Positions 4,170 through 23,191 of a stretch of DNA of 41,052 bases are shown here, one piece after another (position 1 is the first letter of the stretch; every line of letters begins with the position of its first letter). The notes beneath the pieces are model-generated. The model saw only the letters and a program-made list of their open reading frames with translations. It was not told the DNA's origin and did not search any database. The stretch is taken from NCBI GenBank assembly GCA_036387335.1, contig DASVTZ010000210.1, positions 1 to 41,052 on the forward strand, read 5' to 3'. The position numbers and the translations under genes are program-made. Origin of the DNA: Longimicrobium sp. Its GTDB lineage: Bacteria > Gemmatimonadota > Gemmatimonadetes > Longimicrobiales > Longimicrobiaceae.

Positions 4170-6437
4170 CTAACCTCTTAGCCGGGCGGCGAGGCGCTCG
4201 GCGGCGCGGGCGCAGACGGCCCACATGGTGAGCGTGGGGTTGACGCCGTGGCAGGAGGGGAAGACGGCCGTGCCGAACACGTGCAGCCCCGGCGTGTCGT
4301 GGACCTCGAGATCCAGATCGACGACCGAGGTGGCGGGGTCGTGCCCCATCCGGCAGCCGCCCAGCTCGTGGCTGCTCACCACGCCGGCGAAGCGGGGGCC
4401 GCGCCACGTGCGTGCGGCCCCCATGGCGCGCAGGATCTTCTCCGCCTCGCCTTCCATGAACTCGGACATGCGGTGCTCGTTGGGCTGCATGTCGTAGGTG
4501 ATGCGCAGCAGCGGGAGCCCCAGGCCGCTGCGGTCGCGGTGGAGCGGGTCCAGCTCCAGGTAGTTGGCGTGGTACGGGAGCGTGTCCGGCTGCAGGCGCA
4601 CGGCGGCCACGTGCTGCCACTCGCGCAGGTGGTCGCGGTACGGGCGGCCCCACGAGCGCACCTCCGGCGGCAGCGCTTCGCGGCTGATCTGGATGGGGAG
4701 GCGCTGGTTCTCCACGTTGGGCGCCGCGCCGCCGATGAACCCGTGCGCCGCCGAGTCGAAGCCCGCGGAGATGTAGTCGTCCAGGCTCCACATCTGCGCG
4801 GCGGGGCCGGTGTGGGCGTTGAAGACGACGCCGGGGAAGTGGCCCGAGACGTCTGACCACAGCTTGCTCATCACGTGCTTCCCCACCTGCCCCGCATCGT
4901 TCCCCACCCCGTGCGGATGCTGGCCGCTCCCCGAAAGGAGCATCAGCCGCACGTTCTCGAACGTGTAGCTGCACAGGATGACCGTGCGCGCCTCCTGAAT
5001 CCGCGCGGTGCCGTTGGCGTCCACGTACTCCACGCCGCTCGCGTGCCCGTCGACGTCGGTGAGGACGCGGAGGACGCGGCAGTGGGTGCGCAGGTCGAAG
5101 TTGCCGGTCGCGAGCGCCCGGGGGACCCAGGTCTGCCCCGGATGCCAGCGCTCGTCGTTGAAGGGGCCGAAGCCGCCGCTCCACGCGCAGTAGGTGATGG
5201 CCGGGTTGCCGTTGTACGGCTCGCTGTTGACGGCCACGGGGGTGGGGTACGGATGCAGCCCCAGCGACTCTGCCCCCTGGCGAAAGAGCTCGCCCATGCG
5301 AAAGGGGCGCACGGGCGGCAGCGGGTACCCGCCGGAGCGCGGCACGAACGGGTTGGCGCGCGCGTCGCCTGCCACGCCGATGTGGTGCTCCAGCGCCGCG
5401 TAGTACGGCTCCAGCTCGTCGTACGACACCGGCCAGTCGGCCAGCGTGTGGCCCTCGGGAAGAAGCCGGTCCGCGCCCGTCTCGCGCAGGTGAGAGAGGA
5501 AACGGAAGTGATGCGGATGGCAGCGGCGGAGCGCGCCGCCCCAGTGGATGACGGAGCCGCCGACCCCGTTCATCATCCGCCCCAGCGTGAAAGTAGCGGG
5601 GCGGGTGGGCTCGTGCTCGTTGCGGCGCCAGCGCGGCGTCTCGGCCAGGAACTTGGGGCCCATTCCGCCGCGGCAGTAGTACGAGGAGCCCAGCTCGTCC
5701 GGCACGAAGTCGCGGCTGGTGCGCCACGGACCGGCCTCCAGCCCCACCACGCGCAGCCCTGCTTTGCAGAGGATGGACGCCGCCATCGACCCCGCCGCTC
5801 CCACGCCTACCAGCACGACGTCCGCGGCGCCCGGGGGCTCGGCGCCGCGCTGCGGATCGTAGCCGGGGATCTCCACGGGCTCGCGCGGGCCGCCGTCCAG
5901 CGAGTAGCCCACGTCGGCCAGCGAGAGGATGATCCCGTTCTTGGTGGCGGGCTCGGTGGCGAGGTTCTCCTCGGCCGTATTCTCGAACCAGACGCCCGGG
6001 TGCCCCAGGAAGCGCCACCCCGCCTTCCCCCGGTTGCCGCCGTACGCGGGATCGGCGAAGAGCCCTTCCTGCAGGTGCTGCCGCAGCATGGCGAAGAAGT
6101 CGCGCGGCGGCGGCACGCGGAAGCCGTCCAGCGTCCCCGCCTCCAGCTCGGCCAGGAGCGCGTCCTGCTCGGCGGGCGCGCAGTCGGCGAACGGGCGGTC
6201 GTGGCGGCGGCAGGCGGCGCGGTCGAAGCTCGCCAGCCCCGTGCGGTACTCGTCCACCCGGTCGCGGTAGGCGCCGGCGAGCGCGCGGTCCACGTAGGCC
6301 AGCACGCCCAGCTCGGCGGCGCCCGGGCCGTGCTCGTCGGCCGGGAACATCCGCTCGAAGACCGCCGCCGCGGTGCGCGCCTCGTACGGGTTGAGCGCCA
6401 GGAGCGCGGGGTCCGCCGGGCCGGGGTACGGCTGCAC
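4170..6437 (-). CDS. GMC-type flavin oxidoreductase with fused gluconate 2-dehydrogenase subunit-3-like domain
   Basis: This 755-residue protein probably oxidises a sugar or polyol. Residues about 1-150 resemble the small subunit 3 of membrane gluconate/sugar dehydrogenases (PYEARTAAAVFERMFPADEHG at the start, NRGKAGWRFLGHPG near its end). The rest is a GMC oxidoreductase with FAD motif GVGAAGS, the conserved ELGGCRMG region and a C-terminal His/Asn region (CHGVNPTLTMW). Subunit 3 normally is a separate exported protein; here it is one chain without an evident signal peptide. The GTG start at 6437 lies 2 nt after the upstream hydrolase stop. No cytochrome c subunit gene is nearby. The substrate is unassigned, but the context suggests an aldose. 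Confidence 0.88.
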   Translation of the reverse strand: MQPYPGPADPALLALNPYEARTAAAVFERMFPADEHGPGAAELGVLAYVDRALAGAYRDRVDEYRTGLASFDRAACRRHDRPFADCAPAEQDALLAELEAGTLDGFRVPPPRDFFAMLRQHLQEGLFADPAYGGNRGKAGWRFLGHPGVWFENTAEENLATEPATKNGIILSLADVGYSLDGGPREPVEIPGYDPQRGAEPPGAADVVLVGVGAAGSMAASILCKAGLRVVGLEAGPWRTSRDFVPDELGSSYYCRGGMGPKFLAETPRWRRNEHEPTRPATFTLGRMMNGVGGSVIHWGGALRRCHPHHFRFLSHLRETGADRLLPEGHTLADWPVSYDELEPYYAALEHHIGVAGDARANPFVPRSGGYPLPPVRPFRMGELFRQGAESLGLHPYPTPVAVNSEPYNGNPAITYCAWSGGFGPFNDERWHPGQTWVPRALATGNFDLRTHCRVLRVLTDVDGHASGVEYVDANGTARIQEARTVILCSYTFENVRLMLLSGSGQHPHGVGNDAGQVGKHVMSKLWSDVSGHFPGVVFNAHTGPAAQMWSLDDYISAGFDSAAHGFIGGAAPNVENQRLPIQISREALPPEVRSWGRPYRDHLREWQHVAAVRLQPDTLPYHANYLELDPLHRDRSGLGLPLLRITYDMQPNEHRMSEFMEGEAEKILRAMGAARTWRGPRFAGVVSSHELGGCRMGHDPATSVVDLDLEVHDTPGLHVFGTAVFPSCHGVNPTLTMWAVCARAAERLAARLRG

Positions 6438-6439
6438 GG

Positions 6440-7306
6440 CTACGCGGCGGCGACCGTGTTGCGCAGCACGCCGATGCGCTCGATCTCCGCCTCCAGCACG
6501 TCGCCCGGCTTGAGCCACGTCTGCGGATCCAGCCCCATCCCCACCCCGCTGGGCGTGCCGGTCGAGACCACGTCGCCCGCCTCCACCGTCTGCCCGCGCG
6601 AGAGCACGGCGATGATGGTGGGGATGTCGAACACCAGGTCGCGCGTGCGGCTGTCCTGCATCGTCTTTCCATTGAGCCGCAGCGAGAGCGCGAGGTCGCC
6701 CGCGTCCGGCAGCTCGTCCGCGGTGACGATGCACGGGCCCATGGGGCAGGTGCCGTCCAGGCTCTTCCCCTTGAAGAACTGCTGGTGCCGGTTCTGGAGG
6801 TCGCGCGCGGAGACGTCGTTGATGACGGTGTAGCCAAAGATGTAGCCGAGCGCGTCTTCGCGGGCGATGTTCTTTCCCGTGCGCCCCAGTACGAACCCGA
6901 GCTCCACCTCCCAGTCGAGCTGCGTGGTGATCGCGGCGTCGAGCGGGATCTCGGCACCGGGGCCGATGACCGTGGTGGGTGACTTGGTGAAGAAGACGGG
7001 GTGTTCGGGGAGCTTCTCCGGCAGCCCCTTCGCCCGCGCCGACTCGTAGGCGTGCGCCGCGTAGTTCATCCCCAGGCACACGATGTTCTTGCGCGGCCGC
7101 GGGATGGGTGCGAGGAGGCGCACGCGCTCCATCGGGAGGACCTCGCTCGCCGCTTCCACCGCGGCGCGGGCCTCGTCCAGCCCCGCCTCGCCGCGCTCGA
7201 TCAGCGACAGCATGTCCGCCGCGACGGTTCCCAGGTCCACCACTCCGCCCTCGACGAGCGCGCCGATACGCGCGCGGCCCTGTGCATCGTACGTCACCAG
7301 CTTCAT
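6440..7306 (-). CDS. Fumarylacetoacetate hydrolase-family protein, probable 2,4-diketo-3-deoxy-aldonate hydrolase
   Basis: The protein is 288 residues long. The FAH catalytic fold shows GMNYAAHA near residue 80, the metal-binding acidic pair in WEVELGFVLG, NDVSARDLQ, and the GDVVSTGTPSGVGMG loop. Family members cleave C-C bonds of diketo acids or hydrate ketoacids. With an enolase-type dehydratase and an SDR upstream, the best fit is the last step of a non-phosphorylative deoxy-sugar or pentose route, giving pyruvate plus lactate or glycolate. A 2-keto-3-deoxy-pentonate dehydratase role is the main alternative. The ATG has GGAG 8 nt upstream. Confidence 0.88.
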   Translation of the reverse strand: MKLVTYDAQGRARIGALVEGGVVDLGTVAADMLSLIERGEAGLDEARAAVEAASEVLPMERVRLLAPIPRPRKNIVCLGMNYAAHAYESARAKGLPEKLPEHPVFFTKSPTTVIGPGAEIPLDAAITTQLDWEVELGFVLGRTGKNIAREDALGYIFGYTVINDVSARDLQNRHQQFFKGKSLDGTCPMGPCIVTADELPDAGDLALSLRLNGKTMQDSRTRDLVFDIPTIIAVLSRGQTVEAGDVVSTGTPSGVGMGLDPQTWLKPGDVLEAEIERIGVLRNTVAAA

Positions 7307-7423: not shown

Positions 7424-8686
7424 CTATGCGGCTACGTGGGCTACGGTCTGTGGGCCCTCTGGCAGGACGGCGACGCGGGCGGTGGGGCCGTAGCGGCGGA
7501 GCAGTGCGTCGAGGGTCGCTTCGATGTCGGTGCTGGGGATGAGCATGGCGGAGCGGACGGTGTCGGGGGGGAGGGTGGAGAAGAGGTGCACTTCGGCGCG
7601 GCGCTGCACGAGCGCCTGACACTGCGCCTGCCACTGGTCGTGCATCTCGAAGCCGGGCTCCTCGATCATGCGCAGGAGATCTTCGGCGGTCTCGCGCATG
7701 CGCAGGAGGTCCTTGAAGCTGCCATGGTTGGGGAGGCCGTCGCTGCACTCGGCGGCGACGACGATGGCGCCGCCGGGCTTCACGATGCGCGCGGCGGCGC
7801 TCATCCCCTTCACCGCCTGATAGACGCTCTGGTCGAGCGGGTAGCCGCTGTTCGTGGAGAGGACCACGTCGAACGCGTGGTCCACCGCGCGGGTGGCGTG
7901 GCGCGCGACGAAGCGGCACGCATCCTCGTGCGCCCGCAGATAGTGGCCCGCCCACACGCCCGTGATCTCGCGGCGCGGATTGATGGCGACGTTGACCAGG
8001 AAGTGCGGCGGCGCCATCGCCACGGCGGCGCGGATCTCCTCCTGCACCGGGTTCCCCTCCAGCCGCGCCCAGGTGGAGCCCGGGTCGCCGATCATGCGCG
8101 CGCTGTGGAGGTGCTTGATGGTGCGGATCCCCGCCAGCGCCGGGATCACCCCCTTGGCGCCGCCGCTGAATCCCGCGAAGAAGTGCGGCTCCACGAAGCC
8201 CGTCACGATCCGGACGCCCGCGCGCAGCCACTCGTCGCTCACCCACACCTCGCCACCCAGCGGGGTGTCGCCCACGCGGGTGAGCCCCGACTCCGCGAAG
8301 GCGTCGTGGTTGACGATGCGAACGGTGTCCACGATCTCCGCGCCGAGCATCGTCACCAGCTCGTCGCGCGTGTTGGGGCGGTGCGAGCCGGTGCCGTTCA
8401 GGATGACGAAGTTCTCGCGCGGCACGTGCGCCAGCTCCGCCATGATCCAGGGGACCAGGCGCTCGCTGGGGGTGGGGCGCGTGATGTCCGAGATGGAGAT
8501 GGCGACGGTGGAGCGCTCCGTCGCCAGCGCGCGGAGCGGCGCGGCGGCGACCGGCGCGCGCACGGCTTCCAGGAACGCGGCGTGCTCGTCCGGCAGCCCC
8601 GGGAACTCGCGCGGGGAGATCACCACCGCATCGTCGGGGACGGCTACCTGCAGCCGGCCGCGGCCGTAGGCGAGCGAGACGTGCAT
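7424..8686 (-). CDS. larA: LarA-family nickel-pincer racemase/epimerase
   Basis: The 420-residue protein matches lactate racemase LarA in its key residues: Arg70 in DITRP, His102 in GTGSHRPN, His168 in EPHFFAG, Lys178 in GGAKG (the lysine that carries the nickel-pincer nucleotide) and His194. The family swaps the configuration at C2 of 2-hydroxyacids, and some members act on sugar acids. It lies 3 nt after the AldA-like gene. In this cluster it could racemise lactate made by the FAH-family step, or epimerise an aldonate. The cofactor genes larB, larC and larE are not in the window and would have to be elsewhere. Confidence 0.88.
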   Translation of the reverse strand: MHVSLAYGRGRLQVAVPDDAVVISPREFPGLPDEHAAFLEAVRAPVAAAPLRALATERSTVAISISDITRPTPSERLVPWIMAELAHVPRENFVILNGTGSHRPNTRDELVTMLGAEIVDTVRIVNHDAFAESGLTRVGDTPLGGEVWVSDEWLRAGVRIVTGFVEPHFFAGFSGGAKGVIPALAGIRTIKHLHSARMIGDPGSTWARLEGNPVQEEIRAAVAMAPPHFLVNVAINPRREITGVWAGHYLRAHEDACRFVARHATRAVDHAFDVVLSTNSGYPLDQSVYQAVKGMSAAARIVKPGGAIVVAAECSDGLPNHGSFKDLLRMRETAEDLLRMIEEPGFEMHDQWQAQCQALVQRRAEVHLFSTLPPDTVRSAMLIPSTDIEATLDALLRRYGPTARVAVLPEGPQTVAHVAA

Positions 8687-8689
8687 CCG

Positions 8690-10204
8690 CTACTGCGGCG
8701 GCAGCGGGGCGGCGGCCGATCCGTACGGCATCATCCCCTCCGTGGATCCGTCGCCGTAGCTCACGTAGACGGTCTTCTTGCGGAAGTAGTGGGCGTAGCC
8801 GTGGTGGCCGTCGTCGCCGCCCATGCCGCTGAGGCCGTAGCCCGCGTGGAAGCCCTGGAACTGCTCGGGCCCGATCTTGTTGATGTACACCTCGCCGCAG
8901 CGCAGCGCATTCACGGCGCGCATCATCTTCTTGAGGTCGCTCGTGAAGAGGTAGGCGCTCAGGCCGTACGGCGTGTCGTTGGCGAGCGCGATCGCCTCGT
9001 CGAAGTCGTCGAACGCCATCACCGGCGACACCGGGCCGAAGACCTCCTGCTGCATGATCTCCATGTCGTTGCGCACCCCGGTGAGCACCGTCGGCTGGTA
9101 CCAGAAGCCGCGCCCGAACTCGCCGCCCTCGGGACGCCGGCCGCCCAGCACCACCTCCGCGCCCTGCTGGAGTGCGCGTGCCACCATTGCGTCCACTTTG
9201 ACCACTTCAGCTTCGTTGACCTTGGGGCCCAGGTCGACGTCGGTGCGCATCGGGTCGCCCATGCGCAGCCCGCCGGCCAGCGTCACGTAGCGCTCCAGGA
9301 AGTGGTCGAAGACGCGGCGGTGGACGTACGTGCGCTCGTTGCAGGTGCACACCTGGCCGCAGTTCACGAAGCGCGCGTGGATGGCGTGGCGCACCGCGAG
9401 CTCCACGTCGGCATCCTCCATCACGATGAAGGGCGCCTTGCCGCCCAGCTCCAGCGAAACGACGGTGATGTTCTCGGCGGCGGCGGCCAGGATCTCGCGG
9501 CCGGCCCGCACGGAGCCGGTAACCGTCACCAGGTTGGTGTTGCGGTCGCGGACCAGCGCGTCGCCCACCTCGCGCCCGGCGCCCGTCACCACGTTGACGA
9601 CGCCCGGCGGCAGCCCCGCCGCCTCGCAGACGCGGGCCAGCTCCAGGGCGCTGAGCGGGGTGTCTTCGTGCGGCTTCACCACGATGGTGTTCCCGGCCAT
9701 CAGCGCCGGCGCCACCTTGCGGGCAAAGAGCGCCGCCGGGTAGTTCCACGGGATGATGGCCACCACCACGCCGTAGGGAACGCTGCGGATCCAGATGTCC
9801 TCGTCCGGCGCGTCGGAGGGGAGGATCTCGCCGGCGGGGGCGCGCGCAAAGCTGGTGAAGTAGTCGAAGAAGCCCGCCGCGCCGCCAATCTCGCCGCGCG
9901 CCTCCACCAGCGGCTTCCCCTGCTCGCGCACCACCACGCGCGCCAGCCGCTCGGAGTCCGCCTCGATCGCGCGCGCAATGCGGGCGAGGTACGCGCCGCG
10001 CTGCACGCCGCTGAGCGCTTCCCAGGCGGGCTGCGCGGCGCGGGCGGCTTCCAGCGCGGCGCGTGCGTCGTCGCGCGTCCCCTCCGGCACCTCCGCGAAC
10101 GCTTCGCCGGTGGCCGGGTTGAGCACCGGCCGCACCGCGCCCCCCGCGGCGCCGCGCCACTCCCCGCCGATGAGCATCGCGTGGCTTTCGAGACGTGCGT
10201 CCAT
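8690..10204 (-). CDS. aldA: Aldehyde dehydrogenase, AldA (lactaldehyde/glycolaldehyde dehydrogenase)-like
   Basis: This is a 504-residue NAD(P)-dependent aldehyde dehydrogenase. The oxyanion motif PWNYP, the glutamate motif LELGGKAP and catalytic Cys286 in CGQVCTC are intact. From memory it resembles E. coli AldA closely along its length, including the C-terminal stretch QGFHAG..SG.GG.DG.HG. A role in oxidising lactaldehyde or glycolaldehyde fits a sugar-acid pathway that makes a C2 or C3 aldehyde. A 26-residue tail after the usual end is extra. The ATG has AAGGA upstream, and the gene is 15 nt after the SDR. Confidence 0.92.
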   Translation of the reverse strand: MDARLESHAMLIGGEWRGAAGGAVRPVLNPATGEAFAEVPEGTRDDARAALEAARAAQPAWEALSGVQRGAYLARIARAIEADSERLARVVVREQGKPLVEARGEIGGAAGFFDYFTSFARAPAGEILPSDAPDEDIWIRSVPYGVVVAIIPWNYPAALFARKVAPALMAGNTIVVKPHEDTPLSALELARVCEAAGLPPGVVNVVTGAGREVGDALVRDRNTNLVTVTGSVRAGREILAAAAENITVVSLELGGKAPFIVMEDADVELAVRHAIHARFVNCGQVCTCNERTYVHRRVFDHFLERYVTLAGGLRMGDPMRTDVDLGPKVNEAEVVKVDAMVARALQQGAEVVLGGRRPEGGEFGRGFWYQPTVLTGVRNDMEIMQQEVFGPVSPVMAFDDFDEAIALANDTPYGLSAYLFTSDLKKMMRAVNALRCGEVYINKIGPEQFQGFHAGYGLSGMGGDDGHHGYAHYFRKKTVYVSYGDGSTEGMMPYGSAAAPLPPQ

Positions 10205-10219
10205 CTGCTTTCCTTGTGA

Positions 10220-10981
10220 TCAGGCGGCGGTCCAGCCGCCGTCGAGTACGATGGAGGTGCCGGTCACGAACGCCGCGTCGTCGGAGGCCAGGTAGAGCGC
10301 GGCGGCGGCGACCTCCTCGGGCGTGCCCAGGCGGCCCATCGGCTGGCGGGCTTCGAGGGCGGCGCGCGCTTCGGCCTTGTCCTCGACGCCGGCCAGCAGG
10401 CGCTCCACCCAGGGCGAGTCCACCGTCCCTGGACAGACGCAGTTGACGCGGATCCCCTGCTTCACGAAGTCCATCGCCACCTGCCGGGTGAGCGCGATGA
10501 CGGCGCCTTTGCTGGCGCAGTACGAGGCGCGCTTCGGCACCCCCACCATCCCCGCCACGGAGGCGGTGTTGACGATGGCGCCGCGCCCCCGCTTCACCAT
10601 GTGCGGCAGCGCGTACTTGCACCCCAGGAAGACGCTGCGGACGTTGACCGCCATCACGCGGTCCCAGTCCTCCGGCTCGCACTCCACCACATCGGTGGTG
10701 GAGCCGATCCCGGCGTTGTTGCACAGCACGTCGATGCGTCCCATCTCGGAGATCGCCGTCTCGATCATACGGCGCACCTGCTCCGGCTCGCTGGCGTCCA
10801 CCGTGTGCGGCAGGCAGAGCCCGCCCTCCGCGTGCACCATCGCCGCGGTCGCCTCCGCCGCCGCGCCGTCGAGGTCCGCGGCCAGCACGCGGGCTCCTTC
10901 GCGCGCGAAGAGGAGCGCCATCGCCCTCCCGATCCCCGAACCGGCGCCCGTGATCACCGCCGTCTTGTCGTGTAGCCGCAC
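10220..10981 (-). CDS. Short-chain dehydrogenase, probable 2-keto-3-deoxy-aldonate 4-dehydrogenase
   Basis: The protein has 253 residues with classical SDR motifs: TGAGSGIG at 11-18, Asp36 (suggesting NAD rather than NADP), NNAG at 88-91 and the triad Ser141-Tyr154-Lys158. The C-terminal part (CPGTVDSPW, QPMGRLGTPEE, DGGW) resembles 2-keto-3-deoxy-L-fuconate dehydrogenases as I remember them. It would oxidise the C4 hydroxyl to the 2,4-diketo acid that the FAH-family enzyme cleaves. A sugar 1-dehydrogenase role is possible. The GTG start at 10981 has AAAGG upstream; the open frame continues upstream only through repeat DNA. Confidence 0.88.
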   Translation of the reverse strand: MRLHDKTAVITGAGSGIGRAMALLFAREGARVLAADLDGAAAEATAAMVHAEGGLCLPHTVDASEPEQVRRMIETAISEMGRIDVLCNNAGIGSTTDVVECEPEDWDRVMAVNVRSVFLGCKYALPHMVKRGRGAIVNTASVAGMVGVPKRASYCASKGAVIALTRQVAMDFVKQGIRVNCVCPGTVDSPWVERLLAGVEDKAEARAALEARQPMGRLGTPEEVAAAALYLASDDAAFVTGTSIVLDGGWTAA

Positions 10982-11363
10982 GCCGCCTTTGTGTTGGGTG
11001 TGGTGGGGCGGAGGGCCCCCTCCCCCCGGCCCCCTCCCCCGCCTGCGGGGGCGCAGGGCGGGTGAGGGGGAGAACTCCGCGCGCGTCGCACAGATCCGGT
11101 AGGGGCGCGATTTATCGCGCCCGTGCCCGCCGCCGCTCCGCCGCACTGCCCCACGCACACCGCCGCCCGGTAGGGGCAGACCTGCGTGTCTGCCCGCCCT
11201 CGCCCCGGCCGCGACTCTCGCCATTCGGCACCCACACCCCTTGGCGCAGACCTGCGTGTCTGCCCACCCTCGCCCGACCTCGACACTGGCGATTTGGGCA
11301 TCCACACCCGTAGGGGCAGCCCCACGTGGCTGCCCGTGCCCGCCGCGACGCCGTACCCTGCCT
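10982..11363 (+). repeat. Composite intergenic repeat B: C/G-rich block plus four-unit hairpin array
   Basis: No gene in 382 bp. After a C/G-rich block (about 11010-11075) come four hairpin units with stems starting near 11103, 11174, 11244 and 11314, so the period is 70-71 bp. Stems: GGGCGCGAT/ATCGCGCCC, GGGCAGAC/GTCTGCCC, a decayed copy of the latter, and GGGCAGCC/GGCTGCCC. The parts between stems are also weakly similar, ending in (C)CACACCCGTAG-like sequence. The last unit ends 28 bp from the enolase-family stop codon. Confidence 0.85.
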
Positions 11364-12551
11364 CTACGGACCGTGCCGCTCGACCCGGTACCGCTCCACC
11401 GTCTCCGGGTTCAGCGCCACGCCCAACCCCGGGCGTTCCGGAAGGGCCATGGTGCCGTCCGGGCGGACGGTGAGGGGCTCCTGGAAGAGCTCGGTGCGGA
11501 GAGGGTTGGGGTTTTGGTCCAGCTCCAGCCAGCTTCCGTTGGGGATGGAGGCGATGAAGTGCATGTTGGCGATCGCCGCCACCGCGGACGAGAAGTTGTG
11601 CGGGATCACCGGGAGGCCGTAGGCGTGCGCCAAGGCGGCGATCTTGCGCGTCTCGGTGATGCCGCCGGACCAGATCACGTCCGGCTGCACGATGTCCACC
11701 GCGCGGCGCGAGATCAGCTCGCGGAAGCCGGGGAGCGACGACTCCGTCTCGTAGCCGGCGACCGGCGTGGTCACCCGGTGCGCCACCAGCGCGGAGCCCT
11801 CGATGTCCTCCGTCCCCACCGGCTCCTCCAGCCAATAGATGTCCTGGTCCCTGACCGCCTCCATGAAGCGCAGCGCGAGCGACGGAGTCCACGCATTGTT
11901 GGCGTCGATCGCCAGCTTCACCTTCGGACCAATGGCGGCGCGGGCGGCGCGGACGCGCTCCACGTCTTCCTCGAAGGTGACGGTGGCGTAGTCCGGCGCC
12001 ATCATGTCAGGGAGGGGGTTGAGGAGGGCGTCCGGCTGGCGGCCCACCTTGATCTTGATGCAGCCGAAGCCCCGCTCCGCGTATCCGCCCACCTCCTCCG
12101 CCAGCGCCGCCGCATCCTTGCCCGCCGCGTAGAAGCCGGCGGAGGCGTACACGGGAAGGTGGTCGCGGTAGCCGCCCAGCAGCCGGTAGAGCGGGGTGCC
12201 CGTGGCCTGCCCCACGATGTCCCAGAGCGCGATGTCCACGCCGGAGATGGCCTGCATCAGCATCCCGCGGCGGCCGCGCTGGTGGGCGCGCGACGCCATC
12301 ATCTGCCAGAGCCGCTCGATGCGGAACGGGTCCTGGCCCACGACGGTGCGCTTCAGCTCGCCGAGGATGAGCGACTCGGTGCTCTCCAGGAACCCGCCGT
12401 ACGCCGCCGCCTCGCCCAGCCCCACGATCCCCGCATCCGTGTGCACCTGCACCAGCAGCGTGGGGCGCGAAGGCATGTAGTGGATGGCGTCCGCCATCGC
12501 CACGTCCATCGTGTAGTGCAGCTTCAGGGTGGTGACGTCGGTGATGATCAA
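11364..12551 (-). CDS. Mandelate racemase-type enolase superfamily protein, probable aldonate dehydratase
   Basis: The 395-residue protein has the full mandelate-racemase active site: KIK at 166-168, metal ligands Asp216, Glu242 and Glu268, and the Asp291-His318 dyad (QPDVIW, IPHNF). Such enzymes dehydrate acid sugars to 2-keto-3-deoxy acids. The substrate cannot be read from the sequence; L-arabinonate, L-fuconate, L-rhamnonate and galactonate are all candidates. The TTG start is supported by GGAG 7 nt upstream. It is separated from the SDR by 382 bp of repeats and from galK by 154 bp, so it may have its own promoter. Confidence 0.9.
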   Translation of the reverse strand: MIITDVTTLKLHYTMDVAMADAIHYMPSRPTLLVQVHTDAGIVGLGEAAAYGGFLESTESLILGELKRTVVGQDPFRIERLWQMMASRAHQRGRRGMLMQAISGVDIALWDIVGQATGTPLYRLLGGYRDHLPVYASAGFYAAGKDAAALAEEVGGYAERGFGCIKIKVGRQPDALLNPLPDMMAPDYATVTFEEDVERVRAARAAIGPKVKLAIDANNAWTPSLALRFMEAVRDQDIYWLEEPVGTEDIEGSALVAHRVTTPVAGYETESSLPGFRELISRRAVDIVQPDVIWSGGITETRKIAALAHAYGLPVIPHNFSSAVAAIANMHFIASIPNGSWLELDQNPNPLRTELFQEPLTVRPDGTMALPERPGLGVALNPETVERYRVERHGP

Positions 12552-12705: not shown

Positions 12706-13878
12706 TTATCGGGAGAGGGTCGGGGTGAGGGCCTCCACGCTCGCCCCGTCCGACGCGGAGCAGACGTAGACGCGCGGCTCCAGGCCGGCGCGGGCGCGGT
12801 ACTCGTCGGCCACGGTCTGCGCGAAATCGGGGGCGGATTCGGCGCGAACCAGGGCCACGGCGCAGCCGCCGAAGCCGGCGCCGGTCATGCGCGCGCCGTA
12901 GCAGCCGGGGTGCGCCTGGGCCAGCTCCACGATGGTGTCCAGCTCCGCGCGCGAGACCTCGAAGTCGTCGCGGAGCGAGGCGTGGCTGGCGTCCATCAGG
13001 CGGCCCACGGTGGTGGCGTCGCCGCGCTCCAGCGCGCCCGCGGCCTCCACGGTGCGCGCGATCTCGGTGACCACGTGGCGGGCGCGGCGGCGCATCACCG
13101 GCTCGATCTCGCCGGCGCGGGCCTCGAAGGCTTCCGGCGTCACGTCGCGGAGGGCACGGACGTGCAGCACGCCGGCCGCCTGCTCGCAGTGCCGCCGCCG
13201 CTCGTTGTACGCCGAGTCCACCAGACCGCGCCGGGTGGCGGTGTCCAGAATCACCACCGAGGTCCCCGGCGGCAGGGGGACGGCGCGCGTATCGAGCGAG
13301 CGGCAGTCGATCAGCAGCGCGTGCCCCGCGCGGCCGGAGGCGGAGATCATCTGGTCCATGATCCCGCAGTAGACGCCCACCCACTCGTTCTCCGCGCGCT
13401 GGGCGAGCTGCGCCATCTCGCGCGGGTTCCAGGCGAAGCCCGCCATCGCCGCGAAGGCGCGCGCGGTAGCCAGCTCCAGCGCCGCGCTGGACGAGAGGCC
13501 GGCGCCGATGGGCACGTCGCCGGCGGTGACGCCCTCCCAGCCCACGAGGCCGCGGTCCTTTTTCTGGAGCGCCCACGCCATCGCCTGCAGGTACTCGATC
13601 CACCCGTTCCCGCTGCTGGCCAGGTGGCCGATGTCGAACGACCGCTCTTCGCCGAAGTCCAGCGAGTGGACGGAGACGACGCGGTCGCTGCGGGGGCGGA
13701 GGGCGATCCACACGGCGCGGTCGATGGCCATGGGAAGGACGAAGCCCTCGTTGTAGTCCGTGTGCTCGCCGATCAGGTTCACCCGTCCGGGCGCGCGCAC
13801 CACCGCGGCGGGCGGCTCGCCGAAGCGCTCCTCGAACGCGCGCACCACGGTGGCCTGGAGGGAGTCGTTGCTCGTCAT
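12706..13878 (-). CDS. galK: Galactokinase
   Basis: GalK (390 residues) phosphorylates alpha-D-galactose at C1 in the Leloir pathway. The galactokinase signature GRVNLIGEHTDYN lies at 31-43, followed by the ATP loop VPIGAGLSSSAALE, the catalytic Asp in CGIMDQM, and the GHMP motif GAGFGGCAVAL. The start lies 7 nt after galE and the order galT-galE-galK is continuous. The last residues (EALTPTLSR) read into the repeat-like inverted sequence past the gene, so the natural stop seems to have been displaced by a repeat. Confidence 0.96.
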   Translation of the reverse strand: MTSNDSLQATVVRAFEERFGEPPAAVVRAPGRVNLIGEHTDYNEGFVLPMAIDRAVWIALRPRSDRVVSVHSLDFGEERSFDIGHLASSGNGWIEYLQAMAWALQKKDRGLVGWEGVTAGDVPIGAGLSSSAALELATARAFAAMAGFAWNPREMAQLAQRAENEWVGVYCGIMDQMISASGRAGHALLIDCRSLDTRAVPLPPGTSVVILDTATRRGLVDSAYNERRRHCEQAAGVLHVRALRDVTPEAFEARAGEIEPVMRRRARHVVTEIARTVEAAGALERGDATTVGRLMDASHASLRDDFEVSRAELDTIVELAQAHPGCYGARMTGAGFGGCAVALVRAESAPDFAQTVADEYRARAGLEPRVYVCSASDGASVEALTPTLSR

Positions 13879-13885
13879 GTGCGGG

Positions 13886-14872
13886 TCAGGGGGCGGGGGC
13901 GTAGCCGTGCGGGTGCGACCGGTGCCAGGCCCACGCGCTCTCGATGATGCCGCGCAGCTCCGGGTGGCGCGGCGCCCACCCCAGCTCCGCGCGGATGCGG
14001 TCGCTCGCGGCCACCAGCACCGCGGGGTCGCCGGGGCGGCGCGGGCTCACGCCGGCGGGTATGGGGTGGCCGGTGACGGCGCGCGCGGTCTCGATCACCT
14101 CGCGCACGCTGAATCCGCGGCCGTTCCCCAGGTTGTAGGTGCGGCTTCCGTCGTCCAGCGCGTGCAGCGCCAGCACGTGCGCCTGCGCCAGGTCGCTCAC
14201 GTGCACGTAGTCGCGCACGCAGGTGCCGTCCGGCGTGTTGTAGTCGTCGCCGAAGACCATCACCCGCTCGCGCTGCCCCAGCGCCACCTGCAGAACCAGG
14301 GGGATCAGGTGCGTCTCCGGATGGTGGTCCTCCCCCAGGTCGGGCGACACGGCGCCTGCGGCGTTGAAGTAGCGCAGCGCGGCGTAGCGCATCCCGAAGC
14401 GGTCGTCCATCCAGTGCAGCATCCTCTCCAGGATGTACTTCCCCTCGCCGTACGGGCTGCCGGGGGTGATGGGCGCCGTCTCGTCGATGGGGATGCGGTC
14501 CGGGATGCCGAACAGGTTGGCGGTGGAGGAGAGGATGAAGCGCCGCACTCCGTGCGCGGCGGCGCTCTCCATCAGGTTCAGCCCGCAGCGCACGTTGTCG
14601 CCCAGGTACAGGAAGGGCTTCTCCATCGACTCGCCCACCAGCGTGTGCGACGCGAAGTGGAGGATCCCCTCCGGCCGGTGCTCCGCCAGCGCACGGTCGA
14701 TCGCGGCGCGGTCCGCCAGGGTGCCGTTCACGAAGGCGGCGGCGGGGTGGAGCGCCTCGCGGTGCCCCTGCGACAGGTCGTCGAAGACGGTCACCTCGTG
14801 CCCCGCCTCGAGCAGCTCCACCACCGCGGCGCTGCCGATGTAGCCGGCGCCGCCCGTCACCAGCACCCTCAT
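13886..14872 (-). CDS. galE: UDP-glucose 4-epimerase
   Basis: GalE (328 residues) interconverts UDP-galactose and UDP-glucose. It is an extended SDR with the NAD loop TGGAGYIGS at 6-14, Thr117 in SSTANLFG, and the catalytic pair Tyr141-Lys145 in YGEGK. The substrate region [16 protein letters not shown] follows. The ATG at 14872 overlaps the galT stop (ATGA), so the two are coupled. The frame is open further upstream in antisense to galT, which is not part of the gene. Confidence 0.95.
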
Positions 14873-15927
14873 CGCGCGCCCCGCGTCTCGGGGAGGGCGC
14901 GCAGGCGCTCGGCGCTGCTCTCCGGGGTGACGTCGCGCTGCGGCTCGCCCAGCATCTCGTAGCCCACCATGAACTTCTTGACGGTGGCCGAGCGCAGAAG
15001 AGGCGGGTAGAAGTGCATGTGGAGGTGCCACTCCGGGTGCGGGCGGCCGTCGGTGGGCGCCTGGTGCACCCCGGCCGAATACGGAAAGGAGACGCCGAAC
15101 AGGTTGTCGTAGCGCCGCGTGAGCCGCCCCAGGATGTCCGCCAGCCCGTCGCGCTCCGCATCGTCCAGCTCCGGCAGCGAGGGCACGGGGCGGCGGGCGA
15201 CGACCAGCGTCTCGAACGGCCACACCGCCCAGAAGGGGACTAGGGCGACGAAGACATCGTTGGCGAGCACCACCCGCTCGCCGCTCGCCTCCTCCAGGCG
15301 CAGGTAGTCGGCCAGCAGGGTGCGGCTATGGCGCTCCCAGTGCTCGCCCATCCGCTGCGTCTCGCGGGCAGGAGCCTGCGGCACCGACTCCTGCGCCCAG
15401 ATCTGGCCGTGGGGATGCGGGTTGCTGCAGCCCATCATCTCGCCCTTGTTCTCAAAGATCTGCACGTGGCCGATCTCCGGGCGGCTGCCGAGGCGCGCGT
15501 ACTCCTCCGCCCACACGTCCACCACGCCGCGCATGGCCGCGAGCTCCAGATCCGGGAGCGAAAGGTCGTGTCGCGGCGAGAAGCAGATCACGCGGCACAC
15601 CCCCGGCTCGGCGCGCGCCACCAGCAGGCCGGCCACGTCCATCTCCGCCGGCTCCGCGCCGGGGCGCAGCGCGGCGAAGTCGTTGTCGAAGACGAAGACG
15701 CCCGTGTACTCCGGGTTGCGGTGGCCGCCCGCGCGCTCGTTGCCGGGGCACAGGTAGCACGCGGGGTCGTGCGCCGGGCGGTGGACGGGCGCGAGATCCT
15801 CCACCTGCCCCTGCCACGGCCGCAGCGCGCGGTGCGGCGACACCAGCACCCACTCCCCGGTCAGCGGGTTGAAGCGCCGGTGCGGCTGCTCGCGGAGCGC
15901 GCCGGGCAGATCGTGTGAAAGCTCCAT
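14869..15927 (-). CDS. galT: Galactose-1-phosphate uridylyltransferase
   Basis: GalT (352 residues) transfers UMP from UDP-glucose to galactose-1-phosphate. Zinc ligands Cys57 and Cys60 sit in CYLCPGN, and the active site is NPHPHGQIW with the nucleophile His173. The C-terminal half carries the second HIT-like motif ([13 protein letters not shown]). The ATG at 15927 is 7 nt past the GH43 stop; a GTG at 15945 overlapping that stop is an alternative. It is co-directional with galE and galK, so D-galactose is a product of the upstream glycosidases. Confidence 0.95.
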
Positions 15928-15934
15928 CTTCTCG

Positions 15935-17062
15935 TCAGCGGTCACACGGCTCGCCCGACGGCACACGCATCCGCACCCCGGACGCGACCGGCTCCCCGAA
16001 CTCCGGCGACCCGTCCGCCCGCCAGGTGAAGCGCTGTGCGCGGATCACGCGGTTCCAGTTGGGGAGCGTGTCGACCTTGGCGTGGTAGATGATCCAGTCC
16101 TCCGTGCCGTCCGGCGACTTCGTGAAGCCGTTGTGACCCGGCCCGTGCACCCCGTTGGCCGCGGCGAACACGGGGCCGCTCTTGGTCCAGCTCGAGCGCT
16201 GCATGGGATCCGCCGTGGGGCTGTTGAGGCGAAGCTGGCCCAGGCGGTACGCCGGCGTCCACGACTCACGCGTGGAGTAGATGATGAAGACCTGCCCGTT
16301 GCGCTCCAGGATCTGCGGCCCCTCGTTCAGGTCCAGCCCATCTTTCGGGTCCACGCGCCGCTCCCAGCTCTCGGTGGGGGCGGAGATCTGCGCGCGCGGC
16401 CCGCTGATGGTGTGCGGGTCGGACATGCGCGCCACGTAGATGTACTGCGGCGTGCGGGCCAGCGGCGTGTTGTTCTCCCACCCGGACCAGAAGCCGTAGA
16501 GCTGCCCGTTCAGCCGGTGCACCGTGAAGTCGATCGCCCACACGTCGTCCGCTCGCGTGGAGAGCTCGCCGCCGGTGTCGAGCTGGCCGAGGTCCTCCCA
16601 CGCGCCCTGCGGATTATCGCCCGTGGCGCGCAGTACCCCCGCGCGCTGGTAGATGAACGGCGCGTCGGCGGGGCCGGGGCGGCCTGCGGCGTAGTAGATG
16701 TACCAGCGGCCGTCCACGCGGCGGATCTCGGGGGCCCACACGTGCGTCTGGTTCCAGCCGCTGTCCGGCGACGTCCACACGCGCACGCTGTCGCGCATGG
16801 GATCGATGAGCTTCCTCGACCGGAAGACCCACACGCTGCTATTTTGCCCCTCGGGGTTCTTGGACTGCGCCATGTAGTACCAGCCGTCGCTCAGCTCCAC
16901 CCACGGGTCCGCCCCCCGCGCCACGGGGTTGGCGAACGTGCACGCGGCGGCCGATGGCGCCGGAGTGGCCGCGGGCGGCGGCGTGCACGCGCCGAGCAGG
17001 GCGAAGGCGAGCAGGGCGGTCCCATTGCGGGCGAGCATGATCCGACCACGATTGCGATTCAT
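15935..17062 (-). CDS. GH43-family glycosidase lipoprotein (copy 1)
   Basis: The 375-residue protein has a lipoprotein signal ([10 protein letters not shown], lipidated Cys26) and a five-bladed GH43 propeller. The likely catalytic set is Asp52 in GADPWV (base), Asp178 in WAIDFT and Glu247 in LNEGPQ (acid). Family members are mostly alpha-L-arabinofuranosidases, xylosidases and arabinanases, with some exo-galactanases. It is a clear paralogue of the plus-strand gene at 33083 (the motifs [19 protein letters not shown] and YSTRESW are shared). The start at 17062 is chosen for GGGGA 9 nt upstream. An ATG at 17038 would widen the gap to the divergent gene at 17066. Confidence 0.9.
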
Positions 17063-19300: not shown

Positions 19301-20344
19301 TCAACCATGGACCGCCCGCTTCTGAAGGCGGCTCTGCACCACCACCACGCCGAGCAGGAAGACGCCGCGCAGCACGCCCTGCCACCAGGGGGTGATGGTG
19401 CCCTCCAGGTTGAACAGGTTGAAGATGACGCCCAGGAGCAGCACGCCCACCACCGTGGAGCCCACGCCACCCTGTCCCCCGCTCAGAAGCGTGCCGCCCA
19501 CCACCACTGCGGCGATGGCGTCCAGCTCCCAGCCGGTGCCGGCCACGGGCTGCCCCGCGCCCAGGCGCGCGGCGAGGACGACGCCGGCCATCGCCGCAAG
19601 CAGTCCGCTCAGCGCGTAGGTGGCGATCAGCACGCGGTCGATCTTGAGGCCGAGGAGCCGGGCGGCGTCCTGGTGGTCGCCGGCGGCGTAGATGTAGCGG
19701 CCGAAGCGCGTGTAGCGCAGCATCACCCATCCCACGAGGAACGCCAGCGCGGCGAGCACCACTGGCACCGGAATCCCCAGCAGCCGGCCGCGCCCCAGCC
19801 AGAGGAAGCCCTGCGCCGCGCGGTCCACACGCACCGAGTTCTCGCCGGTGACGCCCAGCGCCACGCCGCGCGCCGCGATCATCATGGCGAGCGTCACGAT
19901 GAACGGCTGGATGCGCGCGCGCGTGATGAGGAGGCCGTTGATCGTCCCCAGCAGCGCCCCGGCGGCCAGCCCGCCCGCCAGCGCCACCGCCGTCCCCTGG
20001 CCCGAGAGCGTGGCCGCGACGATCCCGGCCACGGCGAGCACGGCGCCCACCGAGAGGTCGATGCCTCCGGTGAGCACCACCAGCGTCATCCCCAGCGCCA
20101 CCATCCCCAGCATGCTGTTCTGCCGCAGCACGTTGAGGAGGTTCTCGGCGGAGGCGAAGGGCTCGTAGCGGATGACGCCGAAGACGCACACCGCCACCAG
20201 CGCCACCACCGCGCCCTGCCGCTGAAGGAGCGAGGCGGCCTTTGCGCGCAGCGCCGGAGTCCCGCGCGCGGGGATGCCGCTCCCGGCGCCGGGCGGCTGG
20301 CTCCCCGCCTCCGCGGCCCGCACGCCGAGCGCCGGGCCTCCCAT
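19301..20344 (-). CDS. yjfF: Sugar ABC transporter permease (YjfF-like)
   Basis: The 347-residue membrane protein of the RbsC/branched-chain permease group has about ten hydrophobic segments and the family motifs GMTLVVLTGGIDLSVGAV and AAVVVGGTLLSGGQGG. A second, different permease gene lies just upstream, and with the double ATPase and YtfQ-like binding protein this copies the E. coli galactofuranose importer YtfQRT-YjfF. The start ATG has AGGGG upstream; an overlapping GTG at the previous stop is possible. An N-terminal cytoplasmic extension of about 40 residues is rich in Gly, Ala and Pro. Confidence 0.88.
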   Translation of the reverse strand: MGGPALGVRAAEAGSQPPGAGSGIPARGTPALRAKAASLLQRQGAVVALVAVCVFGVIRYEPFASAENLLNVLRQNSMLGMVALGMTLVVLTGGIDLSVGAVLAVAGIVAATLSGQGTAVALAGGLAAGALLGTINGLLITRARIQPFIVTLAMMIAARGVALGVTGENSVRVDRAAQGFLWLGRGRLLGIPVPVVLAALAFLVGWVMLRYTRFGRYIYAAGDHQDAARLLGLKIDRVLIATYALSGLLAAMAGVVLAARLGAGQPVAGTGWELDAIAAVVVGGTLLSGGQGGVGSTVVGVLLLGVIFNLFNLEGTITPWWQGVLRGVFLLGVVVVQSRLQKRAVHG

Positions 20345-20361
20345 CTGCCCCTGGTGTTCCA

Positions 20362-21339
20362 CTAGACGCGCCTCGGTCGCTGGAGGTAGACGGCGAAGAG
20401 GATGATGAACGCCTTTAAGGCGAGCGCCCAGGCGTAGGGCACCAGGAGCATGTTGAAGCTGGTGGCGATCACCTGCATGATGAGCGCGCCCACCACCGTG
20501 CCCAGCAGCGTGGCGCGCCCGCCGCTCAGCAGCGTGCCCCCCACCACCACGGCGGCGATGGCGTCCAGCTCCACGTTCTGGCCGATGCGCGCGGCGGCGC
20601 TCGCCCCGAGCCGCGCCGCCTGCACCAGCCCCGCCAGCCCCGCCAGCATCCCGCTGATGACGTAGACGGAGACGACTGTGCGGCTCACGGGGACGCCGGC
20701 CAGCCGCGCCGCCGCCGGGTTGCCGCCGGCCGCCAGCACGTACCGTCCGAACGGAGTGGCGCGCAGCACGAAGACGGCGAGCGCCACCACCAGCGCCGCA
20801 ACCAGCACCTGCACCGGCACCGGCCCGATGTGGCCGCGCCCCAGCGCCAGGAAGTTCGGGTTGTCGATCGCGATCAGCGCGCCGTCGCGGTTGATGATCT
20901 GCGCCAGCCCGCGCCCCGCCAGCAGCGTCGCCAGCGTGACCACGATCGCCTGCACCTTGAAGTACGAGACGAAGGCGCCGTTCAGCAGCCCCACCGCCAT
21001 CGCGACGATCAGCGCAGTCGGCACGGCCACGGCGATCCCCCGGTCCAGCGTGACCGCCGCCACCGCCGCCGAGATCGCCATCACCGAGCCCACGGAGAGG
21101 TCGATGCCGCCGGTGGCGATCACCAGCGTCATCCCCACCGCCACCAGCAGCGTGACGGAGAGCTGGAACAGGACGTTCCAGAAGTTTCCCGCCGTGGCGA
21201 AGCTGGGGGTGAAGATCGCGTTGGCGGCCACGATGGCGACCAGCGCGATCACCGCTCCTCCGGTTGGTCCCATCGCGCTCCACCAGCGGCCCATCGTCCC
21301 GGCGCCCTGGGTGGGGCGCGCGGCTGCGGATGCCTCCAT
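20362..21339 (-). CDS. ytfT: Sugar ABC transporter permease (YtfT-like)
   Basis: The 325-residue permease has the motif GMTLVIATGGIDLSVGSV at about 93-110 and VELDAIAAVVVGGTLLSGG near 260, both typical of the ribose/galactofuranose permease family. It is paralogous to the next gene (19301-20344), so the pore is probably a heterodimer. It starts 3 nt after the ATPase gene, and the stop is 17 nt before the second permease start. Confidence 0.9.
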   Translation of the reverse strand: MEASAAARPTQGAGTMGRWWSAMGPTGGAVIALVAIVAANAIFTPSFATAGNFWNVLFQLSVTLLVAVGMTLVIATGGIDLSVGSVMAISAAVAAVTLDRGIAVAVPTALIVAMAVGLLNGAFVSYFKVQAIVVTLATLLAGRGLAQIINRDGALIAIDNPNFLALGRGHIGPVPVQVLVAALVVALAVFVLRATPFGRYVLAAGGNPAAARLAGVPVSRTVVSVYVISGMLAGLAGLVQAARLGASAAARIGQNVELDAIAAVVVGGTLLSGGRATLLGTVVGALIMQVIATSFNMLLVPYAWALALKAFIILFAVYLQRPRRV

Positions 21340-21342
21340 CGG

Positions 21343-22890: not shown

Positions 22891-22892
22891 GG

Positions 22893-22924
22893 AGGAGTGC
22901 GTGAGTGCGTGAGTGCGTGAGTGC
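22893..22924. repeat. 8-bp tandem repeat GTGAGTGC at the ATPase start
   Basis: Three exact copies (22901-22924) and one partial copy of GTGAGTGC lie immediately upstream of the ytfR-like ATG at 22890 on the minus strand. The transcript side is CU-rich and lacks a normal ribosome site. Copy number could change by slippage. Confidence 0.85.
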
Positions 22925-22934
22925 GCTTTTCTTA

Positions 22935-23129: not shown

Positions 23130-23163
23130 AAATGGGGGGCGGCGGCTCAGGGTGCTGTGCCCC

Positions 23164-23191
23164 ATTCCCCATTCCCCATTCCCCATTCCCC
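23164..23191. repeat. Four tandem ATTCCCC repeats abutting a stop codon
   Basis: Four exact 7-bp copies end directly at the stop codon of the binding-protein gene (stop 23192-23194 on the minus strand). A slightly decayed run of the same unit (293-320) lies 5 bp from the stop of the response regulator at 326. Confidence 0.85.

Follow-up and report, generated by a model that had tools for sequence, protein, structure and literature searches.

A predicted catabolic operon carrying a LarA gene

The window, by which we mean the whole 41,052-nucleotide stretch analyzed here (contig DASVTZ010000210.1 of assembly GCA_036387335.1, Longimicrobium sp.), carries on its minus strand the gene order galT-galE-galK-MR dehydratase-SDR-AldA-LarA-FAH hydrolase-(Gluconate_2-dh3+GMC), all as intact open reading frames that match the expected families by Pfam or NCBIfam profiles. 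The original prediction had placed an MR dehydratase, an SDR, a FAH hydrolase and AldA at the core of a non-phosphorylative sugar pathway to which LarA and a GMC oxidoreductase are added, and all of these genes were found; its range, 7424-12551, holds the genes from the dehydratase to LarA but omits those for the FAH hydrolase (6440-7306) and the GMC protein (4170-6437). The enzyme types are known singly, but their combination was not found in the literature searched. The host is a soil-type bacterium.

The full operon core is present in three related genomes. Because the order from the MR dehydratase to the GMC gene is identical in G251 (L024) and AVDCRST_MAG68 (L017), in line with the comparison of neighbourhoods proposed at the outset, the grouping is more than chance. 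Measured against these two relatives, dN/dS is 0.07-0.27 for the six operon genes and galK, with values of 0.16 and 0.27 for LarA, and the dehydratase is 97.7% identical to that of L024 and 90.4% identical to that of L017. AldA and LarA are separated by 3 bases in the window and overlap by 4 bases in L017, and the inferred start of the GMC gene directly follows the FAH stop codon. The Leloir genes galT-galE-galK (12706..15966, minus strand; NCBIfam galT_1, galE and gal_kin, all over cut-offs) lie directly upstream of the dehydratase gene, at a galK-dehydratase gap of 154 bases, and in the same order in L017 and L024; they are likely to form one transcription unit with the operon. A promoter and terminator scan returned nothing useful.

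Beyond the Leloir genes lie three GH43 genes, at 15935-17044 (minus strand; assigned by eye and by its resemblance to another GH43 gene, at 33032-34144), 17051-18115 (plus strand; Pfam Glyco_hydro_43) and 18115-19320 (minus strand; Glyco_hydro_43, with a weak match to the AbnA endo-arabinanase). They are followed by a sugar ABC importer (19301..24247, minus strand) with two permeases, an ATPase and a binding protein, which is YtfQ/YtfR-like by matches below the cut-offs (YtfR 598 bits, cut-off 850; YtfQ 266 bits, cut-off 510); the one permease tested is best matched, also below cut-off, by ribose/arabinose permeases, and the other was read by eye. The plus-strand stretch at 24539..35434 encodes, by profiles, a LacI-type regulator, a GH2 with PA14, SusC-like and SusD-like proteins (the latter by eye), a GH43 enzyme (33032-34144; best PDB match the alpha-L-arabinofuranosidase 3akf, 153 bits) and galM (34379-35434). 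The polysaccharide genes point to arabinose and galactose, and arabinan is the apparent target of the GH43 enzymes. Among the proteins scanned, none was recognized as a fucosidase, a rhamnosidase, a known fucose 1-dehydrogenase or a lactonase, nor was any sugar 1-dehydrogenase or lactonase recognized among the operon proteins scanned, which agrees with the remark in the original prediction that no lactonase is visible.

The sugar-acid enzymes

The MR/enolase-superfamily sugar-acid dehydratase (11364..12551, minus strand; Pfam MR_MLE_N/C) is best matched in NCBIfam by the arabinonate dehydratase AraD_Arch (279 bits, below the cut-off of 650), while the rhamnonate dehydratase model scores 148 bits and no fuconate dehydratase model is among its NCBIfam matches. 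The residues K166-x-K168, D216, E242, E268, D291, H318 and E343 are all present, with roles that we take to be those of their mandelate racemase counterparts. The dehydratase relatives on plasmids are 36-39% identical at best among the matches listed, and the single neighbourhood of a relative that was opened (L035) did not point clearly to a substrate.

The SDR (10220..10981, minus strand, start inferred) is predicted to be of the 2-keto-3-deoxy-sugar-acid 4-dehydrogenase type (PRK06138, 334 bits, cut-off 312). Its best PDB matches are 4dqx (222 bits), which excerpts of PMC11199699 place next to type 2 L-KDFDH, and 8xwk/8y11/8y4j (194 bits), the H. huttiense L-KDFDH of the same source. The residues S144-Y157-K161, R154, T189, R215 and W253 are present, and the equivalents of the L-KDFDH ligands Arg148, Thr183 and Arg214, together with Trp252, are all found; three of the four Arg148, Thr183, Arg192 and Arg214 type ligands are thus kept, with Leu at the Arg192 position (R-T-L-R), where the type 2 pattern in the available part of PMC11199699 is R-T-Y-R. 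The protein is an SDR with most ligands of a 2-keto-3-deoxyfuconate 4-dehydrogenase. Part of the pattern also occurs in other SDRs of the fetched loci, for example L021 and L036.

The predicted 2,4-diketo-3-deoxy-sugar-acid hydrolase of the FAH family (6440..7306, minus strand; Pfam FAA_hydrolase, 244 bits) is best matched in NCBIfam by 2,4-didehydro-3-deoxy-L-rhamnonate hydrolase (NF053535, 200 bits, below the cut-off of 500) and carries an NYxxHxxE motif with H85 and E88, the His/Glu pair of Route III hydrolases, which PMC6336799, as far as its available text goes, connects with the hydrolysis of a C-C bond. The solved chain closest to the protein, 8sky, bears the family name only. The one neighbourhood of a FAH relative that was opened (Leisingera, L034) was unrelated.

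The AldA-type protein (8690..10204, minus strand; Pfam Aldedh) belongs to the lactaldehyde/glycolaldehyde/anhydrogalactose class, passing the PRK10090 cut-off of 500 with 541 bits. The last gene (4170..6437, minus strand, GTG start inferred) encodes a Gluconate_2-dh3 subunit fused to a GMC oxidoreductase (Pfam Gluconate_2-dh3, GMC_oxred_N/C), for which the large subunit of fructose dehydrogenase is the best PDB match (138 bits); it is possibly an aldose or sugar-acid dehydrogenase.

LarA, its cofactor and the fate of its product

Most LarA enzymes known so far come from anaerobes, and for many of them the natural role is unclear. The operon LarA (7424..8686, minus strand; Pfam Lar_N and LarA_C), a predicted nickel-pincer 2-hydroxyacid racemase, is the sole LarA of its genome and scores 479 bits to the NCBIfam nickel-dependent lactate racemase NF033504 (cut-off 460). 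As claimed originally, every pincer residue is there, and so are the catalytic ones: D67, R70, H102, H168, K178, H194 and K293 correspond to D72, R75, H108, H174, K184, H200 and K298 of L. plantarum LarA. The proposal that the operon serves non-phosphorylative use of a sugar acid and includes an entire LarA is supported. The specificity positions (175, 176, 358 and 359 of LarA1) are occupied by F169-F170-W352-Q353, which is the F, F, W, E/Q pattern of lactate racemases and not the E-V-A-H of gluconate 2-epimerases (excerpts of PMC11770544). Since the pocket is of the lactate/glycerate-racemase type, its substrate is most likely the small acid that the pathway finally releases rather than an aldonate; of the two roles proposed for it originally, inversion of lactate is favoured by the pocket and epimerization of an aldonate is disfavoured.

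The genes for NPN biosynthesis, the presence of which was to be checked, are all in the window's genome, over their cut-offs and on contigs other than that of larA: larC on C97 (404 bits), larB on C63 (283.5 bits) and a LarE-type TIGR00268 gene on C81 (317.6 bits). The absence of larBCE, named in the original prediction as grounds for abandoning it, is thus not applicable.

No L-lactate dehydrogenase was recognized in the three operon-bearing genomes among the families searched (LUD, FMN_dh and NAD-LDH). The LUD domain is missing from all three; the FMN_dh matches are incomplete, and the two that were opened, from the window genome and G251, look by eye like IMP dehydrogenase; the NAD-LDH match is below cut-off in 3/3, and the protein behind it in the window's genome is malate dehydrogenase. 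LUD, however, is absent from 8/8 genomes of the genus, with or without LarA, and its contrast between LarA genomes (0/7) and others (104/388) is not significant (Fisher p 0.20), so that its absence is weakened as proof that LarA is needed. FAD-oxidase_C proteins, of D-2-hydroxyacid dehydrogenase types, occur in all three operon-bearing genomes, outside the operon and with scores below the glcD and YdiJ cut-offs. A DUF4147 glycerate kinase type is also present in all three.

Proposed pathway and its alternatives

We favour, with a probability of roughly 0.6, a reading in which a six-carbon sugar resembling L-fucose is broken down by Route III and LarA converts L-lactate (or L-glycerate) to its D form. 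In the order of reactions that we infer, the GMC protein is a candidate catalyst of the initial oxidation, the MR dehydratase would convert the sugar acid to a 2-keto-3-deoxy acid, the SDR would oxidize C4 of the latter, and the FAH hydrolase would split the 2,4-diketo acid into pyruvate and a short hydroxy acid. LarA would invert this acid, most likely L-lactate to D-lactate or, for a full hexose, L-glycerate to D-glycerate; D-lactate would pass to the flavin-type D-2-hydroxyacid dehydrogenases and D-glycerate to the glycerate kinase. AldA may supply L-lactate from lactaldehyde. The sugar most likely has the L-galacto configuration, as L-fucose does; that L-fucose-type substrates also fit had been noted originally, and the LarA pocket, the SDR ligands, the FAH His/Glu pair, the lack of a recognized L-lactate dehydrogenase in the families searched and the rhizobial loci described below speak for the reading as a whole. 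Against it stand an aldehyde dehydrogenase that has no step in Route III, a dehydratase nearest to an arabinonate model, a FAH protein below its family cut-off, polysaccharide genes that suggest arabinose and galactose, the lack of a recognized fucosidase, rhamnosidase, fucose 1-dehydrogenase or lactonase among the proteins scanned, and D-2-hydroxyacid dehydrogenases encoded outside the operon. For one LarA, a place within a sugar-acid pathway would supply a clear reason to exist, because the hydrolase would release a single mirror form and the dehydrogenases that the cell seems to have fit only the opposite one.

A sugar of the L-galactose or 3,6-anhydro-L-galactose type is an unlikely alternative. 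Oxidation by the AldA-like enzyme and then an MR step, either opening or dehydration, to 2-keto-3-deoxy-L-galactonate would lead into Route III with no need for a lactonase, giving pyruvate and L-glycerate, which LarA would turn into D-glycerate for the glycerate kinase type found in 3/3 operon-bearing genomes. This was raised by the best solved match of AldA, 6j75 (504 bits; E. coli AldA, 447 bits), which is 3,6-anhydro-L-galactose dehydrogenase (PMC10163077), and agrees with the Gln that takes the LarA1-T359 position here and in LarAH43, an enzyme with the F-F-W-E/Q pattern that prefers glycerate in the available part of PMC11770544, and with plasmids of R. ruizarguesonis and Rhodovastum in which LarA adjoins glycerate kinase. 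The agar pathway (6J75, 5XD7) likewise joins an AldA-family dehydrogenase to an MR-family enzyme, but it is weakened as a reading by the MR and GH43 comparisons: the window MR enzyme scores 137 bits with the anhydrogalactonate cycloisomerase 5xd7, less than with 3sjn (196), 4ggb (181) and many other MR enzymes, and no agarase-type or GH117 gene was recognized, the GH43 enzymes looking arabinan-directed. That LarA is a glycerate racemase in an aldehyde-dehydrogenase-first, lactonase-free Route III of an L-galactose-type sugar, possibly 3,6-anhydro-L-galactose, we regard as rather improbable; if true, the L-hexose pathway would be one not described before, and NPN glycerate racemases would gain a physiological role.

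Also unlikely is a pentose pathway, in which L- or D-arabinose would become arabinonate, the AraD-like enzyme would dehydrate it, and the product would be channelled either to alpha-ketoglutarate by a FAH-fold dehydratase and an aldehyde dehydrogenase (Route II) or to pyruvate and glycolate (Route III). The AraD_Arch match and the arabinan enzymes nearby speak for it, and a FAH-fold 2-keto-3-deoxyarabinonate dehydratase exists (2q18), but the latter scores 48.5 bits with the window FAH, which bears the His/Glu pair of the hydrolases and resembles other FAH enzymes far more closely, and AldA reaches 375-382 bits with the ketoglutaric-semialdehyde dehydrogenase models (cut-offs 750-770). Route II, which leaves no role for a 4-dehydrogenase-type SDR or a racemase, was set aside on the His/Glu pair and the class of the aldehyde dehydrogenase. 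L-arabinose had been found attractive originally, and the arabinose-type GH43 enzymes are real, but as a substrate it is weakened because the Route III product of pentoses is glycolate (excerpts of PMC6336799), which is achiral and would leave LarA idle.

Finally, that LarA is a sugar-acid C2-epimerase admitting a second aldonate to the dehydratase step is quite improbable and was set aside, even though LarA shares an operon with the dehydratase and gluconate/mannonate-epimerizing relatives exist and the broad LarAH10 is active on D-mannonate too (Table 1; excerpts of PMC7583248 and PMC11770544), for the pocket is bulky, dehydration erases C2 stereochemistry anyway and no source of a second aldonate is visible. 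GntE, a D-gluconate 2-epimerase of the superfamily, also has the nickel pincer and can sit in sugar-acid gene contexts, but its E-V-A-H pocket is absent here; where gene context suggests aldonate epimerization by a LarA, the pocket residues should be checked first.

Returning to the L-fucose-like reading, the L-fucose Route III of Xanthomonas, Herbaspirillum and Paraburkholderia (FucA-B-C-F-G) ends in pyruvate and L-lactate and, in the available parts of PMC11199699 and PMC6336799, has a dehydratase, an SDR 4-dehydrogenase and a FAH hydrolase, types to which the proteins of the window operon are predicted to belong. This operon differs in having no recognized fucose dehydrogenase or fuconolactonase, in adding LarA, AldA and the Gluconate_2-dh3/GMC fusion, and in the R-T-L-R of its SDR in place of R-T-R-R or R-T-Y-R. 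The L-rhamnose pathway with LRA5/LRA6 has the same reaction types and the same FAH family (NF053535), but the window FAH is below that family's cut-off and the dehydratase is matched better by the arabinonate than by the rhamnonate model. In rhamnose regulons the L-lactate dehydrogenases lldD/lldEFG (PMC3870299) extend the deoxyhexose route past L-lactate to pyruvate, as we propose here, although in the window by way of D-lactate. The available portions of the literature on L-fucose/L-rhamnose non-phosphorylating pathways make no mention of a lactate racemase. With the lactate racemases of L. plantarum and LarAH42/43/51 the window LarA shares the pincer and catalytic residues, the pocket and the genomic larBCE; in contrast to them, it is encoded in a sugar-acid catabolic operon, with larB, larC and larE on other contigs.

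Outside the genus, the operon is absent from the other LarA loci (5/5 in the phylum and 6/6 of L018-L023), and therefore these LarAs say little about it. Among the eight plasmid LarA loci fetched, of 15 records, four, all rhizobial (L033, L039, L040 and L041), hold LarA, LarC, LarE-like and LarB proteins together with the Route III types FAH (that of L033 scores 414 bits, cut-off 500, with the model of the L-rhamnonate-route hydrolase) and SDR, a GlcD-like flavoenzyme and a protein resembling L-fuconolactonase (205 bits in L033, cut-off 400). As close relatives they count as roughly one event, and they are an independent parallel to the combination of LarA with Route III; because two unrelated lineages, Gemmatimonadota and rhizobial plasmids, show LarA with Route III genes, the idea is directly testable. 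In L025 and L028, LarA adjoins a GlcD/FeS-type protein of 961-962 aa.

A conserved and rare operon

The window (contig C210 of an assembly of 5.82 Mb in 265 contigs, 95.65% complete) carries on its minus strand, as judged from the reading of ORFs and from family profile matches, the gene order galT-galE-galK-MR dehydratase-SDR-AldA-LarA-FAH-GMC. AldA and LarA are separated by 3 bases, and the inferred GMC start lies directly after the FAH stop codon. The original prediction placed the pathway at 7424-12551, which spans dehydratase to LarA but omits FAH and GMC, located at 4170-7306. The surroundings comprise GH43 enzymes, a YtfQ/YtfR-like sugar importer, a LacI regulator, GH2, SusC/SusD-like genes and galM.

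The operon is real, conserved and rare. The six-gene core, from dehydratase to GMC, is entire in three genomes: that of the window, G251 (locus L024) and AVDCRST_MAG68 (locus L017), a near relative whose LarA is 84% identical to that of the window and by which the window can be assigned to the Gemmatimonadota. Purifying selection acts on galK as well as on each core gene (dN/dS 0.07-0.27; LarA, 0.16 and 0.27). Since LarA is found in only 7 of 395 genomes of the phylum sample (E<=1e-60) and the dehydratase in 2 (E<=1e-90), the operon was probably acquired. It is absent from the other LarA loci of the phylum (0/5) and from loci of other phyla (L018-L023; 0/6).

Several features of these loci deserve mention. 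At 4170-6437, Gluconate 2-dehydrogenase subunit 3 is joined to the N-terminus of the GMC oxidoreductase; by eye there is no obvious Tat signal, which suggests that the fusion may be a cytoplasmic sugar dehydrogenase. The GH43 genes at 15935-17044 and 33032-34144, in opposite orientation and with stretches 75-79% alike (inverted repeats I1, I2 and I4), appear to form a paralogous pair. G+C-rich repeats of about 50-146 nt are dispersed between genes, also inside the operon (67-275, 3363-3415, 7323-7389, 11013-11364, 12567-12625 and 35680-35789); because the gaps that they occupy are not the same in L017 as in the window, they resemble mobile elements of the REP type. In other Gemmatimonadota, LarA adjoins a gene for a 961-962 aa FAD/FeS D-2-hydroxyacid dehydrogenase-like protein and an aminotransferase-like gene (L025:1759-6141 and L028:6377-10574), and in L027 (G286:C397) a LarA 49-51% identical to that of the window lies amid genes resembling glycoside hydrolases, another link between LarA and polysaccharide loci.

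Candidate sugars and their predicted cleavage

The dehydratase scores highest against archaeal arabinonate dehydratase (279 bits, under the cut-off of 650). Because D-arabinonate and L-fuconate share their C2-C4 configuration, this match is compatible with L-fuconate and L-galactonate too. The best structural match of AldA is 6J75 (504 bits; E. coli AldA, 447 bits), a 3,6-anhydro-L-galactose dehydrogenase (PMC10163077), and the GH43 enzymes resemble arabinan enzymes. The best solved relative of the SDR is 4DQX, close to which type-2 L-KDF 4-dehydrogenases have been placed (PMC11199699, in excerpt), and the H. huttiense enzyme of this activity stands a few places below. Important residues of these dehydrogenases include Arg148, Thr183, Arg192, Arg214 and Trp252 (same excerpt); the window SDR has equivalents at four of the five, with Leu replacing Arg192, a pattern partly common to two of the other SDRs of the fetched loci (L021 and L036) in what is a small control. 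FAH carries the His/Glu pair (H85 and E88) described for hydrolases of Route III, the pathway of dehydration, C4 oxidation and cleavage into pyruvate and a short hydroxy acid (PMC6336799, in excerpt); against the L-rhamnonate-route hydrolase model it scores 200, below the cut-off of 500.

Excerpts of the literature give L-lactate as the Route III product of a 6-deoxyhexose such as L-fucose (PMC11199699) and glycolate as that of pentoses (PMC6336799); a full L-hexose, reacting in the same way, would yield L-glycerate. Only the 6-deoxyhexose or the full L-hexose gives LarA an acid to invert. In falling order of likelihood, the candidate sugars are an L-fucose-like deoxyhexose, then an L-galactose-like hexose and a pentose, these two about equally likely. 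The L-fucose-type substrates originally allowed for therefore come first, but L-arabinose, then thought attractive, falls lower, as glycolate leaves LarA nothing to invert.

A nickel-pincer racemase, probably for the released acid

LarA is single-copy in the window genome and has all catalytic residues and, in line with the original prediction, all nickel-pincer (NPN) residues. The genome check proposed with that prediction found larB, larC and larE, which score above the curated cut-offs and lie on three further contigs; the NPN pathway is therefore present, and the operon LarA is the sole LarA client found for it. Its four specificity positions read F, F, W, Q. At these positions F, F, W, E/Q is typical of lactate racemases and E, V, A, H of gluconate epimerases, and LarAH43, which carries Q, is best on glycerate (PMC11770544, in excerpt). 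The pattern separates small-acid racemases from aldonate epimerases; it makes no choice between lactate and glycerate, because W followed by Q/E occupies the last two positions in all 22 aligned LarAs, which also keep the catalytic lysine.

As to the fate of the acid, no LUD-domain protein was found in the three operon-bearing genomes (0/3), where FMN_dh matches are partial (by eye, the ones inspected, in the window genome and in G251, read as IMP dehydrogenase) and NAD-LDH matches fall below the cut-off in all three (that of the window genome, the sole one identified, is malate dehydrogenase). All three have FAD-oxidase_C proteins of the D-2-hydroxyacid dehydrogenase type and a DUF4147-type glycerate kinase. 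The lack of recognised L-lactate routes should not be overread, since LUD is absent from all eight same-genus genomes, with or without LarA, and, in the phylum sample, from all seven LarA genomes versus presence in 104 of 388 others (p 0.20). In some rhamnose regulons, lldD or lldEFG meet the corresponding need, taking the route on from L-lactate (PMC3870299, in excerpt). The nickel-pincer racemase most likely completes the route, inverting the hydroxy acid that cleavage sets free, and the operon, as read from its sequence, would represent a novel form of Route III. Our literature search found no paper joining lactate racemase with fuconate or fumarylacetoacetate; titles and abstract openings of the broader matches listed link LarA to no Route III-type pathway, and the searched parts of two such papers mention mandelate racemase only, or no racemase.

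Rhizobial plasmid clusters

LarA occurs in 15 plasmid records, eight of which were fetched. Four rhizobial ones (L033, L039, L040 and L041) hold LarA, LarC, LarE-like, LarB, FAH and SDR together, with an L-fuconolactonase-like protein, two aldo/keto reductases and a GlcD-like flavoenzyme; L039-L041 are without annotation and were read by comparison to L033. An MR gene lies inside the fetched stretch in two (L033 and L041). Their LarA is about 34-35% identical to that of the window, with an F-M-W-Q pocket, and the SDRs readable in one piece (L033, L040 and L041) have the type-1 R-T-R-R pattern. In L039 (Rhizobium sp. BG4), the SDR alignment falls into two pieces at 16720-17269, which may reflect a broken reading frame in this record. 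These probable L-fucose clusters with their own nickel racemase form a parallel to the window operon that arose independently; being closely related to each other, the four amount to roughly a single event. They would lend themselves to experiments better than the window does.

Of the other four records fetched, L032 is an unrelated locus and L037 has SDR and flavoenzyme without FAH. In L036:9992-15322 and L038:2656-9034, LarA is followed directly by LarC, LarE-like, LarB and glycerate kinase, a clustering pointing to glycerate racemase as the natural role of these LarAs; L038 also has a KdgT-like permease.
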